Made by a program: the position numbers and the translations under genes | Part shown: positions 1,204-19,315 of the stretch, piece by piece | How positions within the stretch are numbered: position 1 is the stretch's first letter | How the letters are laid out: the number at the start of each line of letters is the position of its first letter | Notes under the pieces: model-generated | The model's input: the letters and a program-made list of their open reading frames with translations, nothing else | Database searches by the model: none | Told to the model about the DNA's origin: nothing | Assembly: GCA_028283725.1 (NCBI GenBank) | Contig: JAPWKC010000004.1 | Coordinates: 1,612,001-1,676,000, forward strand | Length of the DNA: 64,000 nucleotides | Origin: Neorhizobium sp. | GTDB lineage: Bacteria > Pseudomonadota > Alphaproteobacteria > Rhizobiales > Rhizobiaceae | Direction: 5' to 3'

Positions 1204-1394
1204 GGATCTGTTCACCCTTATGATGCCGCTTCGACGCGGCTTGAAATCAGTCTCTAGAGTTTCAGCGAATTGATTAACGAGACATGAATTGCCTTGCTTT
1301 ATGACAGATTTCCGACAGATCTCCGATCACTTTTTGCAACGCAATATTGCCTCGCGTGGTTGCCGGATCGGCTTTGTGGCCTAAATCTGTTCTC

Positions 1395-13812: not shown

Positions 13813-14316
13813 TCAACCGGCGAGGCCGACTTTCGGGCGCGGGCGGAAGGCGGCGCGCAGCTGGTAGAGCATGGCGATCGGCTTCGGATAGGGCTTGCGC
13901 AGGAAGGCGACCTTCTTGACATAGTCGTCCACCTGCCAGGTGGCCCAGGTGCCGGCCTTGAAATAGCCGACATCGCCGGCTGCCAGAAGCCGGGCCGTGC
14001 CATCCTCGGCGGTGATGTGGACAGAGCCCTCAAGGATGACGACGGTCTCGTCCCAGCCGAAATACCAGCGGAAACTGCCGGCCGTGCAATCCCAGACACC
14101 GGTCGCGGCAAGCCCATCCTCGCCCTTGGAGTGGGCGGCGGCGCGCGCCTGCGGATTGCCGGTCAAAACCCAAGAGGGCTCGATCGGCAGCGGCTGCATC
14201 TCCAGCGCATGGGGGCTGGCACCGACGAATGGTTTCGCCCGTGCCGGCTCATCGCCGGATGGCTTGTAGCGGATCGCGATCGCGGCGGCGGCGGCCGCAA
14301 TGACGTGCCAACTCAT
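13813..14316 (-). CDS. Cupin domain protein
   Basis: FRWYFGWDETVVILEGSVHITAEDGTARLLAAGDVGYFKAGTWATWQV. Confidence 0.75.
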   Translation of the reverse strand: MSWHVIAAAAAAIAIRYKPSGDEPARAKPFVGASPHALEMQPLPIEPSWVLTGNPQARAAAHSKGEDGLAATGVWDCTAGSFRWYFGWDETVVILEGSVHITAEDGTARLLAAGDVGYFKAGTWATWQVDDYVKKVAFLRKPYPKPIAMLYQLRAAFRPRPKVGLAG

Positions 14317-14380
14317 GTCTATCCCCTCATGATTACCCTTAACCGCGAGGATTGGTATCAAACAAAGATGAGCGGCCGGT

Positions 14381-14457: not shown

Positions 14458-15558
14458 TCAGGCGACCGGCTGGGCGGCGCTCGATATGGCGCCGACAATG
14501 GCACCGCCGGCCAGGCGTTTGCCCGTCTCGGCGGAGAAGAAATGCAGTTTGGCCGGGTCGATGACGATGCGCATGTCCTGCGAAAGTTCGGTTGCGGCCG
14601 ACAGCGCGATGGTGAGCGACTGATCGCCGAGCGAGCCGTGGACAAGACGCTGGGCGCCGAGTTCCTCGGTGTAATCGACGCGGAAGGGCAACGCCTCCTC
14701 GCCTTCCGAAGCAAGGCGCAGGTCTTCGGCGCGCAGGCCGACAGTCACGGCGCCGGATGTCGGCGCATAGCCGTTGAGATCGATCACCGATGGGCCGATC
14801 GCGAGCTTGTCGCCATGGAGCTCGCCCTTGACCAGGTTCATGGCCGGCGAACCGATGAAGCTTGCGACGAAGGTCGAGGCCGGCGTGTGGTAGACGTCGA
14901 GTGGCGAACCGACCTGCTCGATCCGGCCGCCGTTCAGCACGACGAGGCGGTCTGCCAGCGTCATCGCTTCCAGCTGATCGTGGGTGACATAGATCGAAGT
15001 CGTGCCCAGGCGGCGCTGCAGGCGCTTGATCTCGCCGCGCATGGAGACGCGCAGTTTGGCATCGAGGTTCGACAGCGGTTCGTCGAAGAGGAAGACGGCC
15101 GGCTTGCGGACGATGGCGCGGCCCATGGCGACGCGCTGGCGCTGGCCGCCGGACAGCGCCTTCGGCTTGCGCTCCAGATACTGGCCGATTTCCAGCATGC
15201 GCGCGGCTTCCGTCACACGTGCCTCGATTTCGGCCTTCGGGGTGCGGCGGTTCTTCAATCCATATTCGAGGTTCTGCTTCACCGTCATATGCGGGTAGAG
15301 CGCATAGTTCTGGAAAACCATGGCGATGTCGCGGTCGGCCGGCTCGACGTCGTTGACGACGCGCGGGCCGATCTTGACCTGACCTTCGGAAATGGTCTCA
15401 AGGCCGGCGATCATGCGCAGAAGCGTGGACTTGCCGCAGCCGGACGGGCCGACGAGCACGATGAACTCGCCATCGGCAATGTTGAGCCTGATGTCGGAGA
15501 CGGCCCGAACGCCGCCGGTGTAGATCTTGCCGACATTTTCGACGTCGATGGAAGCCAT
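14458..15558 (-). CDS. ugpC: sn-glycerol-3-phosphate ABC transporter ATP-binding protein
   Basis: [35 protein letters not shown], UgpC/MalK-type C-terminus; adjacent to ugpEAB. Confidence 0.9.
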
Positions 15559-15560
15559 TG

Positions 15561-16409
15561 TTATTTCTCCGTCTCAACCAGGCCTTTGACGAACAGGCGC
15601 TGCATGAAGATGATGACCAGGACCGGGGGGAGCGCCGCCAGGATGACGCCCGCCATGACGAGGTTCCATTGCGTATCGCCGTCGAGCACGGCGGCCAGCC
15701 GCTTGATGCCCATGACCACGGTGTAATAATGCGGTTCGGTGGTGATCAGCATCGGCCAGAGATACTGGTTCCAGCCGAAGATGAACATGATGATGAAGAG
15801 CGCCGCGATATTGGTGCGCGACAGCGGCAGAAGGATATCCCAGAAAAATTTCAACGGTCCGGCACCATCGACGCGGGCGGCCTCCATCGTTTCTTCCGGA
15901 ATGGTCAAAAAGAACTGGCGGAAGAGGAATGTGGCGGTGGCAGACGCGATGACCGGAATGACGAGGCCGGAAAAGGAATTCAGCATGCCGAGATCGGCGA
16001 TCACCTTGTAGGTCGGCAGAATGCGTACCTCGATCGGCAGCATCAGCGTCATGAAGATGATCCAGAAGGCGATGACGCGGCCGGGAAAGCGGAAATAGAC
16101 GACCGCGAAGGCCGACAGGATCGAGATCGCGATCTTGCCGAAGGCCACCAGCAGCGCCATGATCAGGCTGTTGCCGAGCATCAGCAGGAAGGGCGGCGCG
16201 CCGGCTTCCGTCGATCCGGCGCCTAGGAGCGCGCCATAATTCGCCCAGGTCTGGTCGCCCGGCGTCAGCGGCACGACGCCGGTCATGAAATCGGCAGGGC
16301 CGCGGGTCGAAGCGATGAAGGCGAGATAAACGGGAAAGACCACCGTTGCGACGCCGAGGATCAGCACGAGATGGGTGAGAAAATTCAGAAACGGGCGGTT
16401 CTCGACCAT
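15561..16409 (-). CDS. ugpE: sn-glycerol-3-phosphate ABC transporter permease
   Basis: MalG-type permease, EAA loop [21 protein letters not shown]. Confidence 0.88.
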
Positions 16410-16423
16410 GACCGAGGCTCCTA

Positions 16424-17308
16424 TCAGTATTGTACTTTGCGCTCGATCCAGCGGAACTGGACGATCGTCAGGAGGACCACGATCAGCATCAGGACCACGG
16501 ACTGGGCTGCGGACGGGCCGAGATTGAGGCCGATGAAGCCATCGGCATAGACCTTGTAGACGAGGATATTCGTCGACTGGGCCGGGCCGCCGGATGTGGT
16601 GGAATCGATGATCGGGAAGGTGTCGAACATCGCGTAGGTGATGTTGATGACGGCGAGGAAGAAGGTGGTCGGCGACAGAAGCGGAAAGACGATCGTCCAG
16701 AAGCGCTTCACCGGGCCGGCGCCATCGATCGCGGCAGCCTCCGTCAGCGAATGCGGCACGGATTGCAGGCCGGCGACGAAGAACAGGAAATTGTAGGAAA
16801 TCTGCTTCCAGGCGGCGGCGATGATGACGAGGATCATCGCGTCGTTCGGATTGAGCCGGAAATTCCAGTTATAGCCGAGATAATTCAGGCCATAGGGAAT
16901 GATGCCGACGCTGGGGTTGAACATGAACCACCAGAGCAGACCGGATGCTGCGGGCGCCACGGCATAGGGCCAGACGAGGAGCGTCGTGTAGAATCGCTGC
17001 GAGCGGATGACGCGATTGACGCAGACGGCCAGAAGCAGCGATGCGCCCATCGACAACGCAGTCACGCCGATCGAAAAGACGACGGTCACGCCGAGCGCGT
17101 TCATATAATCGGCATCGCCCAGCAGGCGCGTATAGTTCGCGAACCAGATGAAGGTGTCCTTCATGCCGAACGGGTCCTGGCGCAAGAAAGACTGCCAGAT
17201 CGCCTGGCCGGCCGGCCATACGAAAAAGATCAGCGTGATGATGAGCTGCGGTGCCAGAAGGAGATAAGGCAGGAGGCGGCTTTTGAAGACGGTGCGCTTG
17301 GTCTGCAT
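16424..17308 (-). CDS. ugpA: sn-glycerol-3-phosphate ABC transporter permease
   Basis: MalF-type permease, EAAAIDGAGPVKRFWTIVFPLLSP. Confidence 0.88.
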   Translation of the reverse strand: MQTKRTVFKSRLLPYLLLAPQLIITLIFFVWPAGQAIWQSFLRQDPFGMKDTFIWFANYTRLLGDADYMNALGVTVVFSIGVTALSMGASLLLAVCVNRVIRSQRFYTTLLVWPYAVAPAASGLLWWFMFNPSVGIIPYGLNYLGYNWNFRLNPNDAMILVIIAAAWKQISYNFLFFVAGLQSVPHSLTEAAAIDGAGPVKRFWTIVFPLLSPTTFFLAVINITYAMFDTFPIIDSTTSGGPAQSTNILVYKVYADGFIGLNLGPSAAQSVVLMLIVVLLTIVQFRWIERKVQY

Positions 17309-17433: not shown

Positions 17434-18759
17434 TTAGTTGGAATTCGCGGCCTGGAAGTCGGTCAGGATGGCATTGCCCTGCTTGGCACCATCATCGAGA
17501 GCCTGCTGGCCGGTCTTCTTGCCGGCGAGAACGGCTTCCAGCTGCTGGTCGAGCGCATCGCGGATCTGGCTGAGGTTGCCGAAGCGAACGCCCTTGGAGT
17601 TATCGTCCGGGGTGCCGCGGGTGATCTGCTTGATGGCAATGTCGGAGCCCGGATTCTTGGCGTAATAGCCCTGCTTCTGACCAAGCTCGTAGGCAGCGTT
17701 GGTGATCGGCAGGTAGCCGGTGAACTGGTGCCAGTCGGCCTGGATGTCCGGCTGCGACAGATAGGTGAAGAACTTGGCAGCGCCCTTGTAGACTTCCTTG
17801 TTCTTCTGGCCGTTCAGAACCCATAGCGTCGCGCCGCCGATGATCGAGTTCTTCGGGTCCTTGGTGACCTTGTCGTCATAAGGCATCGGCGCGAAGCCGA
17901 CGTTGAACTTCGAGTTGGCGATGACGTCTGCGCGCGAAGCCGACGAGTTCATGTAGACGGCGCATTGCTGCGAGTAGAAGGCCGGTGCCGCATCGGCGCC
18001 GCCGCTCGGGCCGCCATACTTGTAGGAACCGTCGTCATGCCACTTCTTCAGCTGATCCCAGAAGGCAGCCTGATGCGGGCCGTTGAAGGTGAGGCGTGCA
18101 TCCATGCCGCCGAAGCCGTTCTGCTTCGTGCCGTAGGGCAGGTCCTGGATGGCCGAGTAGTTTTCGAGGCCGACCCAGCTTGCGCCGTAGGACATGGTGA
18201 AGCCGCACTTGGCTGCGCCGGACGAGACGATCTTCTTGCTCATCTCGCCGAGTTCAGCCCAGGTCTTGGGGGCGACGTCAGGGTTGAGGCCAGCCTTCTG
18301 GAAGACGTCCTTGTTGTAATACAGGATCGGCGTCGAGGAGTTGAACGGCATGGACAGGATGTTGCCCTGCGGATCGGTGTAATAACCGGTGACGGGAGCC
18401 AGGAACTTCGAGGGATCCCAAGGCTCTCCCGCGTCCTTCATCAGCTGGTAGACCGGGTAGACGGCGCCCTTGGCGGCCATCATCGTGCCGGTACCGACTT
18501 CGAAGACCTGAACGATGGCAGGCTGCTGGCCGGCGCGGAAAGCGGCGATCGCGGCAGTGAGGGTTTCCGGGTAGGTGCCCTTGTAGACCGGAACGATCTT
18601 GTACTCGCTCTGGCTCTCGTTGAACTTCTTGGCAACGTCTTCGAGCTTCTGGCCGAGCTTGCCGCCCATGGCGTGCCACCAGGTGACTTCGGTAGCGGCC
18701 ATCGACGACGTCGCCGACAGCGCGATCGCTGCTGCGGCGATCGAAAGTTTCTTGAACAT
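17434..18759 (-). CDS. ugpB: sn-glycerol-3-phosphate ABC transporter substrate-binding protein
   Basis: Signal peptide MFKKLSIAAAAIALSATSSMAATEVTWWHAMGG, SBP type 1; heads the ugpBAEC order. Confidence 0.9.
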   Translation of the reverse strand: MFKKLSIAAAAIALSATSSMAATEVTWWHAMGGKLGQKLEDVAKKFNESQSEYKIVPVYKGTYPETLTAAIAAFRAGQQPAIVQVFEVGTGTMMAAKGAVYPVYQLMKDAGEPWDPSKFLAPVTGYYTDPQGNILSMPFNSSTPILYYNKDVFQKAGLNPDVAPKTWAELGEMSKKIVSSGAAKCGFTMSYGASWVGLENYSAIQDLPYGTKQNGFGGMDARLTFNGPHQAAFWDQLKKWHDDGSYKYGGPSGGADAAPAFYSQQCAVYMNSSASRADVIANSKFNVGFAPMPYDDKVTKDPKNSIIGGATLWVLNGQKNKEVYKGAAKFFTYLSQPDIQADWHQFTGYLPITNAAYELGQKQGYYAKNPGSDIAIKQITRGTPDDNSKGVRFGNLSQIRDALDQQLEAVLAGKKTGQQALDDGAKQGNAILTDFQAANSN

Positions 18760-18809
18760 GGTCGTCCTCTCCACCGTGATTGGGGTGAGGATCGCAATAG
18801 GGCCGGCCC

Positions 18810-18849
18810 GTGACAGGACCTTAACAGTTTTGTTTCAGATTTATGACAG
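18810..18849 (-). promoter_or_regulatory. PHO-box array (PhoB binding) upstream of ugpB
   Basis: Minus strand CTGTCAT-AAAT-CTGAAAC-AAAA-CTGTTAA-GGTC-CTGTCAC: four half-sites with exact 11-bp periodicity. Confidence 0.85.
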
Positions 18850-18880: not shown

Positions 18881-19315
18881 TCAAAAAACCTCCACAAAAT
18901 GGCGGGGCAGGCGCCAGGGGCGAACGACGATCACATCATAGCGGCAGGAGAGGCGCGCATGATCGGGCCGGCGTGACAGCCAGATATCGCCCGTGGCGCG
19001 GATGCGCTGTTGCGCGCGATAACCGACGGCGTCGAGCGCCGCACTCTCCACGCGCCGCGCCTTGACCTCGACGAAGGCGATCAAATCGCCTTTCCTCGCC
19101 ACAAGATCCACTTCGCCGGCGCGGGTGCGGTAGCGTATCGCCAGAATGCGGTAGCCCCTGGCGATCAGGAAGGCGGCAGCGACATATTCCGACAGGCGAC
19201 CCCGCCTCTCGGCCCTCTTGCGCTTCAGACCGAGATGATCGCCCTTGCCCATCCCCGTCGCTCCCCACCCTTGCCCTTGCCTACCCTTGCCCTTGCCTAT
19301 CCCCGTCCGTGCCAA
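18881..19315 (-). CDS. YraN family (UPF0102) endonuclease-like protein
   Basis: AAAFLIARGYRILAIRYRTRAGEVDLVARKGDLIAFVEVKAR; alternative start ATG at 19252. Confidence 0.88.
   Translation of the reverse strand: MARTGIGKGKGRQGQGWGATGMGKGDHLGLKRKRAERRGRLSEYVAAAFLIARGYRILAIRYRTRAGEVDLVARKGDLIAFVEVKARRVESAALDAVGYRAQQRIRATGDIWLSRRPDHARLSCRYDVIVVRPWRLPRHFVEVF
19267..19298. repeat. 16-bp tandem duplication
   Basis: ACCCTTGCCCTTGCCT x2 at 19267-19282 and 19283-19298. Confidence 0.9.

Follow-up and report, generated by a model that had tools for sequence, protein, structure and literature searches.

A conserved four-unit PHO-box array predicts PhoB control of the ugpBAEC operon in Neorhizobium

Results and Discussion

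A four-unit array precedes ugpBAEC

The window, a 64,000-nucleotide stretch of a Neorhizobium sp. contig, carries a ugpBAEC operon on its minus strand (Table 1). The products UgpB, UgpA, UgpE and UgpC all scored above the NCBIfam cut-offs for the glycerol-3-phosphate system, and the genes stand in the order BAEC. Upstream lies yraN, on the same strand as ugpB, and downstream of ugpC lies a Cupin_3 (EutQ-like) gene, which may or may not be co-transcribed with ugpBAEC. The ATG of ugpB is at 18759; an in-frame GTG upstream, at 18774, is a possible start, but it would precede the likely ribosome site.

The original prediction described four minus-strand 7-mers at exact 11-bp spacing, forming two tandem 18-bp PHO boxes 51-90 bp upstream of ugpB, and direct reading of the window bore out the sequence, the geometry and the placement. 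From 18849 to 18810 the minus strand reads CTGTCATaaatCTGAAACaaaaCTGTTAAggtcCTGTCAC. All three start-to-start steps between units are 11 bp, with 7-bp repeats and 4-bp linkers, and the four units are in phase and make up two 18-bp boxes with 4 bp between them. The units are close to CTGTCAT, with 7, 5, 5 and 7 of 7 positions matching. Against CTGTCAY the array scored 24/28 in total, between the 26/28 of E. coli pstS and the 23/28 of the E. coli ugpB array. PHO unit 4 stands where a −35 element would lie, and 10 nt past it begins a predicted −10 hexamer, TATTGC (spacer 18809-18800). A scan with the sigma-70 consensus found no promoter on the coding strand at this place and a single one on the opposite strand, and a generic sigma-70 promoter for ugpB was rejected. 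The missing consensus fits an activator-dependent promoter, though it proves nothing.

Table 1. Positions of the promoter elements and genes at the ugpBAEC locus of the window
Feature	Description	Positions	Strand	Basis
PHO unit 1	CTGTCAT, 7/7	18843..18849	(-)	direct reading; CTGTCAY score
PHO unit 2	CTGAAAC, 5/7	18832..18838	(-)	direct reading; CTGTCAY score
PHO unit 3	CTGTTAA, 5/7; weakest unit across relatives	18821..18827	(-)	reading, score, alignment
PHO unit 4	CTGTCAC, 7/7; best conserved across relatives	18810..18816	(-)	reading, score, alignment
Probable −10	TATTGC	18794..18799	(-)	conserved in Rhizobiaceae; E. coli pstS spacing
Probable Shine-Dalgarno	GGAGAGG	18766..18772	(-)	sequence
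ugpB	periplasmic binding protein, 441 aa	17434..18759	(-)	NF008211, 527 bits (cut-off 411)
ugpA	permease	16424..17308	(-)	NF007852, 394 bits (cut-off 335)
ugpE	permease	15561..16409	(-)	NF008210, 380 bits (cut-off 297)
ugpC	ATPase	14458..15558	(-)	NF008653, 532 bits (cut-off 432)
Cupin_3 gene	EutQ-like protein, downstream of ugpC	13813..14361	(-)	PF05899; synteny
yraN		18881..19315	(-)	NF009151; synteny

The four units together exceed chance expectation

A pattern of four CTGNNA motifs at 11-bp steps, with two mismatches allowed, is expected 0.01 times per window, and its only matches in the window were the ugpB array and that array offset by one unit. The score of 24/28 was the highest of any four-unit site in the window, where the next independent site reached 18, and the maximum over 400 simulated windows (dinucleotide model) was 22. 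In pattern searches of the 4.08-Mb genome, the ugpB array was the sole site with a similar four-unit pattern at one mismatch or fewer. Either 18-bp box by itself (12/14 each) is not significant, with 10 matches in the window against 5.6 expected at up to three mismatches; the significance of the array thus comes from having four units in phase, not from the single boxes. On the simulation and the conservation described below, we rejected a chance origin of the array as a whole.

The same window scan for boxes returned an 18-bp PHO-like match, CTGTCGGaaatCTGTCAT, at 1301-1318 (-). This match precedes a gene for a class-II glutamine amidotransferase by approximately 100 bp and falls inside the chance expectation.

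The array and its −10 hexamer are conserved in Rhizobiaceae

An array stands 48-55 bp before ugpB in all 37 Rhizobiaceae loci compared that share the gene order rsmI-yraN-ugpBAEC (that of the window and 36 others). It was searched for at 45-58 bp, and an unrestricted 300-bp scan gave identical sites. The gene order rsmI-yraN-ugpBAEC is kept in Rhizobiaceae, including Shinella, Neorhizobium, Rhizobium, Xaviernesmea, Pseudorhizobium and others. The Cupin_3 gene and then gshB usually follow ugpC in this family, whereas the E. coli operon closes with ugpQ at that place. Three GDPD-family genes lie elsewhere in the Neorhizobium genome, apart from the ugp operon.

Among 23 non-redundant sequences, information content was 1.39 bits per base in the 7-mers (somewhat inflated, because the array served to register the sequences), 0.82 in the linkers and 1.37 in the −10 hexamer, which played no part in the registration; the 40 bp preceding the array carried 0.30. 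Unit 4 is the best kept across relatives, at 6.3 of 7 positions, and unit 3 the worst, at 4.7.

Similar arrays were also found before ugpB in relatives from Pleomorphomonas, Devosia and Halomonas/Vreelandella, some of them at differing distances. That such an array is universal before ugpB-like genes was mostly rejected, as a clear array was present in only two (L174 and L178) of the upstream regions of 20 other UgpB-like genes, whose products are mostly 42-55% identical, with one at 63%. Several of these 20 genes follow another coding region, and their control could lie further upstream.

The genome carries a Pho system

Profile searches of the genome identified phoB (345 bits, cut-off 296) and phoR (355 bits, cut-off 334), and reading the locus directly placed pstSCAB-phoU between the two. 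A three-unit array, CTGTCATaaatGTTTCACtgaaCTGACAT, precedes pstS; the pstS profile TIGR02136 gave only a sub-cut-off match on the genome. Genome-wide pattern searches counted 60 two-unit PHO boxes against 15 for the reversed-pattern control, an approximately fourfold difference. The genome also encodes more than 12 full-length PhoB relatives, with many full-length TIGR02154-like regulators scoring below the cut-off.

Several other PHO-type sites were noted. A PHO-like box, CTTTCACcattCTGTCAT, lies at L146:8099-8082 (-), where phoR is flanked by the divergently oriented ppk2, which encodes a polyphosphate kinase 2; the box stands between the two genes. Three-unit PHO-type arrays occur at L148:2196-2157 (-) and L147:2117-2145 (+) (Neorhizobium genome, C4:1076156 and C4:486116); downstream of them are a gene for an EAL-GGDEF-CBS protein and a small ORF, behind which lies an ORF with a PilZ domain. 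These neighboring genes may link phosphate to cyclic di-GMP.

The array resembles characterized PhoB promoters

The four-part PhoB operator-promoter is well known as a class. The E. coli pstS promoter likewise has four 7-mers at 11-bp spacing, a weakest third unit and a perfect fourth unit, CTGTCAC; its units match at 7, 7, 5 and 7 positions and are followed by 10 nt and then TATTTT. It differs in serving pst, in its distance from the start codon (66 bp, against 50 here), and in its inner unit 2, which is perfect there but 5/7 here. The orthologous E. coli operon, ugpBAECQ, also has a four-unit array upstream of ugpB, but it lies 107 bp ahead of the ATG and extends over more units. That ugpB is a PhoB target in E. 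coli, and is activated by PhoB, has been proven with ChIP (PMC3465305; PMC10294691, the latter by ChIP and RNA-seq), so that the binding and activation predicted here are proven there. The rhizobial PHO box has been described as two CTGTCAT repeats with a 4-nt spacer (PMC3131613), features that the window array shares. A lone PHO box is no proof of regulation, because the R. leguminosarum rosR gene carries a PHO-like box of good consensus without a phosphate role (PMC3131613).

PhoB very likely activates ugpBAEC

That PhoB controls ugpBAEC, as the original prediction proposed, is strongly supported, because the geometry of the array, the conserved −10, the conservation across Rhizobiaceae, the phoB, phoR and pst genes with their own PHO-type boxes and the proven control of E. 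coli ugp all point the same way. With high confidence, we read the 40-bp array as a PhoB operator and, at the same time, as the activator-dependent core promoter of ugpBAEC. The layout that it shares with E. coli pstS fits replacement of the −35 element by PhoB, which is established for E. coli PhoB. Yuan et al. in 2006 reportedly predicted PhoB promoters in Sinorhizobium meliloti and other proteobacteria (cited in PMC4415409). Activation of ugpBAEC by PhoB, a known kind of control, is thus very likely on the sequence evidence, and places the operon in the phosphate-starvation regulon with good confidence, with its predicted promoter mapped to the base. PhoB control of a glycerol-phosphate uptake operon is ordinary. 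Against this reading, the inner units 2 and 3 match at only 5 of 7 positions, some relatives keep unit 3 poorly, and the binding pocket of UgpB departs at one key position from the glycerol-3-phosphate type.

Under phosphate scarcity, PhoR would phosphorylate PhoB. By analogy with E. coli, two PhoB dimers would occupy the four 11-bp units head to tail, the dimer on units 3 and 4 would substitute for the −35 element, and PhoB would recruit RNA polymerase to TATTGC 10 nt downstream. Induction of ugpBAEC would then allow scavenging of organic phosphate of the glycerol-phosphate type. In this scheme we saw directly the array with its geometry and conservation, as well as the phoB, phoR and pst genes; binding, occupancy, polymerase recruitment, induction and substrate are carried over from E. 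coli. PMC4415409 cites a structure of tandem PhoB bound to 11-bp repeats.

A second, carbon-responsive promoter could act in addition to the PhoB promoter, an arrangement that is compatible with PhoB activation but that we consider unlikely. In E. coli, PhoB and CRP act on ugp through separate promoters, and the operon also answers to cAMP-CRP (PMC4415409); the 31 bp that separate the end of yraN from unit 1, however, leave little space for another promoter outside the yraN coding region. Binding of the array by a different member of the OmpR/PhoB family, one that recognizes comparable 11-bp direct repeats, is very improbable: the many PhoB relatives in the genome provide candidates, but the units follow the PhoB consensus CTGTCAT, the operon belongs to the classic Pho members and the −10 is placed as in E. 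coli pstS. We give hardly any credence to a chance or degenerate motif with ugpB read through from an rsmI-yraN promoter independently of PhoB, since, although each box alone is no better than chance and the nearby same-strand end of yraN makes some read-through plausible, the four in-phase units were unmatched in simulation, unique in the genome and conserved together with their −10.

The binding pocket of UgpB departs from E. coli at one clamp residue

Pho promoters serve several transporters, in E. coli pst, phn and ugp, and a PHO array predicts regulation, not substrate. The original prediction also took the array as support for assigning the transporter to glycerol-3-phosphate. That assignment held in part: the four Ugp family matches and most of the ligand contacts favor it, but the residue corresponding to E. 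coli Trp169 is changed, and the step from array to substrate is weak.

The closest solved relatives of the window UgpB are those of Phaeobacter and E. coli. Nine residues touch glycerol phosphate in Phaeobacter UgpB (PMC12718374), and in our alignment 8 of the 9 are kept in the window protein. These include all seven phosphate- and hydroxyl-contacting residues, Tyr64, Glu88, Ser143, Ser266, Gly303, Tyr342 and Arg393 (Phaeobacter numbers). The two-Trp clamp (Phaeobacter Trp188/Trp191; E. coli Trp169/Trp172) is incomplete. Its second Trp is kept as Trp195, and the first, Phaeobacter Trp188 or E. coli Trp169, aligns with Tyr191 (codon 18189-18187), after which comes a one-residue insertion that leaves a gap in the alignment beside it.

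E. coli Trp169 has been described as essential for glycerol-3-phosphate binding, and in the glycerophosphocholine-specific UgpB of Mycobacterium tuberculosis Leu replaces it (PMC7034087). The window protein likewise departs from E. coli at this residue, but by Tyr and an insertion instead of Leu, and the mycobacterial protein is a distant homologue whose substrate is not transferable to it. Glycerol-3-phosphate and a glycerophosphodiester are both candidate substrates of the window UgpB.

The Tyr form was present in 20 of 80 fetched UgpB relatives (L062-L079, L082 and L088), all of them belonging to Rhizobiaceae or unclassified Rhizobiales and keeping the gene order described above. It looks derived, because the other 60 have Trp.

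Two diverged ugp versions share one promoter

Neorhizobium loci with near-identical flanks and a near-identical PHO promoter diverge sharply over a segment of approximately 2.8 kb that reaches from the middle of ugpB into the early part of ugpC. Between Neorhizobium galegae DS1978 (Tyr) and N. galegae bv. officinalis (Trp), identity is 95-96% for rsmI, yraN, cupin and gshB, but only 66% for UgpA and 70% for UgpE. At the DNA level, the two remain approximately 90% or more identical across the promoter and the first part of ugpB; identity falls near +450-480 and recovers near +3300, inside ugpC. Three Neorhizobium pairs (L088/L080, L077/L083 and L073/L095) have the same limits of divergence. One promoter therefore stands over two versions of the transporter, which are distinguished by a residue that in E. 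coli is reported to be essential for binding glycerol-3-phosphate, and the array cannot tell the substrate because it is common to both.

This pattern looks like either repeated allelic exchange or alternative alleles kept for a long time, and its simplest reading would be that homologous recombination exchanged the segment and spared the PHO promoter. As a tentative and rather doubtful extension, rhizobia may exchange a cassette of approximately 2.8 kb, comprising the 3' two thirds of ugpB, ugpA, ugpE and the start of ugpC, that lies under one conserved PhoB promoter and changes what the Pho-controlled importer recognizes; the window would then carry the derived Tyr version, with the clamp residue Trp169 replaced, perhaps favoring a glycerophosphodiester such as glycerophosphocholine over glycerol-3-phosphate. 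In the UgpB and UgpA trees the Tyr and Trp forms each make up one clade (100/100), and on the tree of the flanking rsmI six changes between Tyr and Trp are needed, at least four of them forced by well supported branches.
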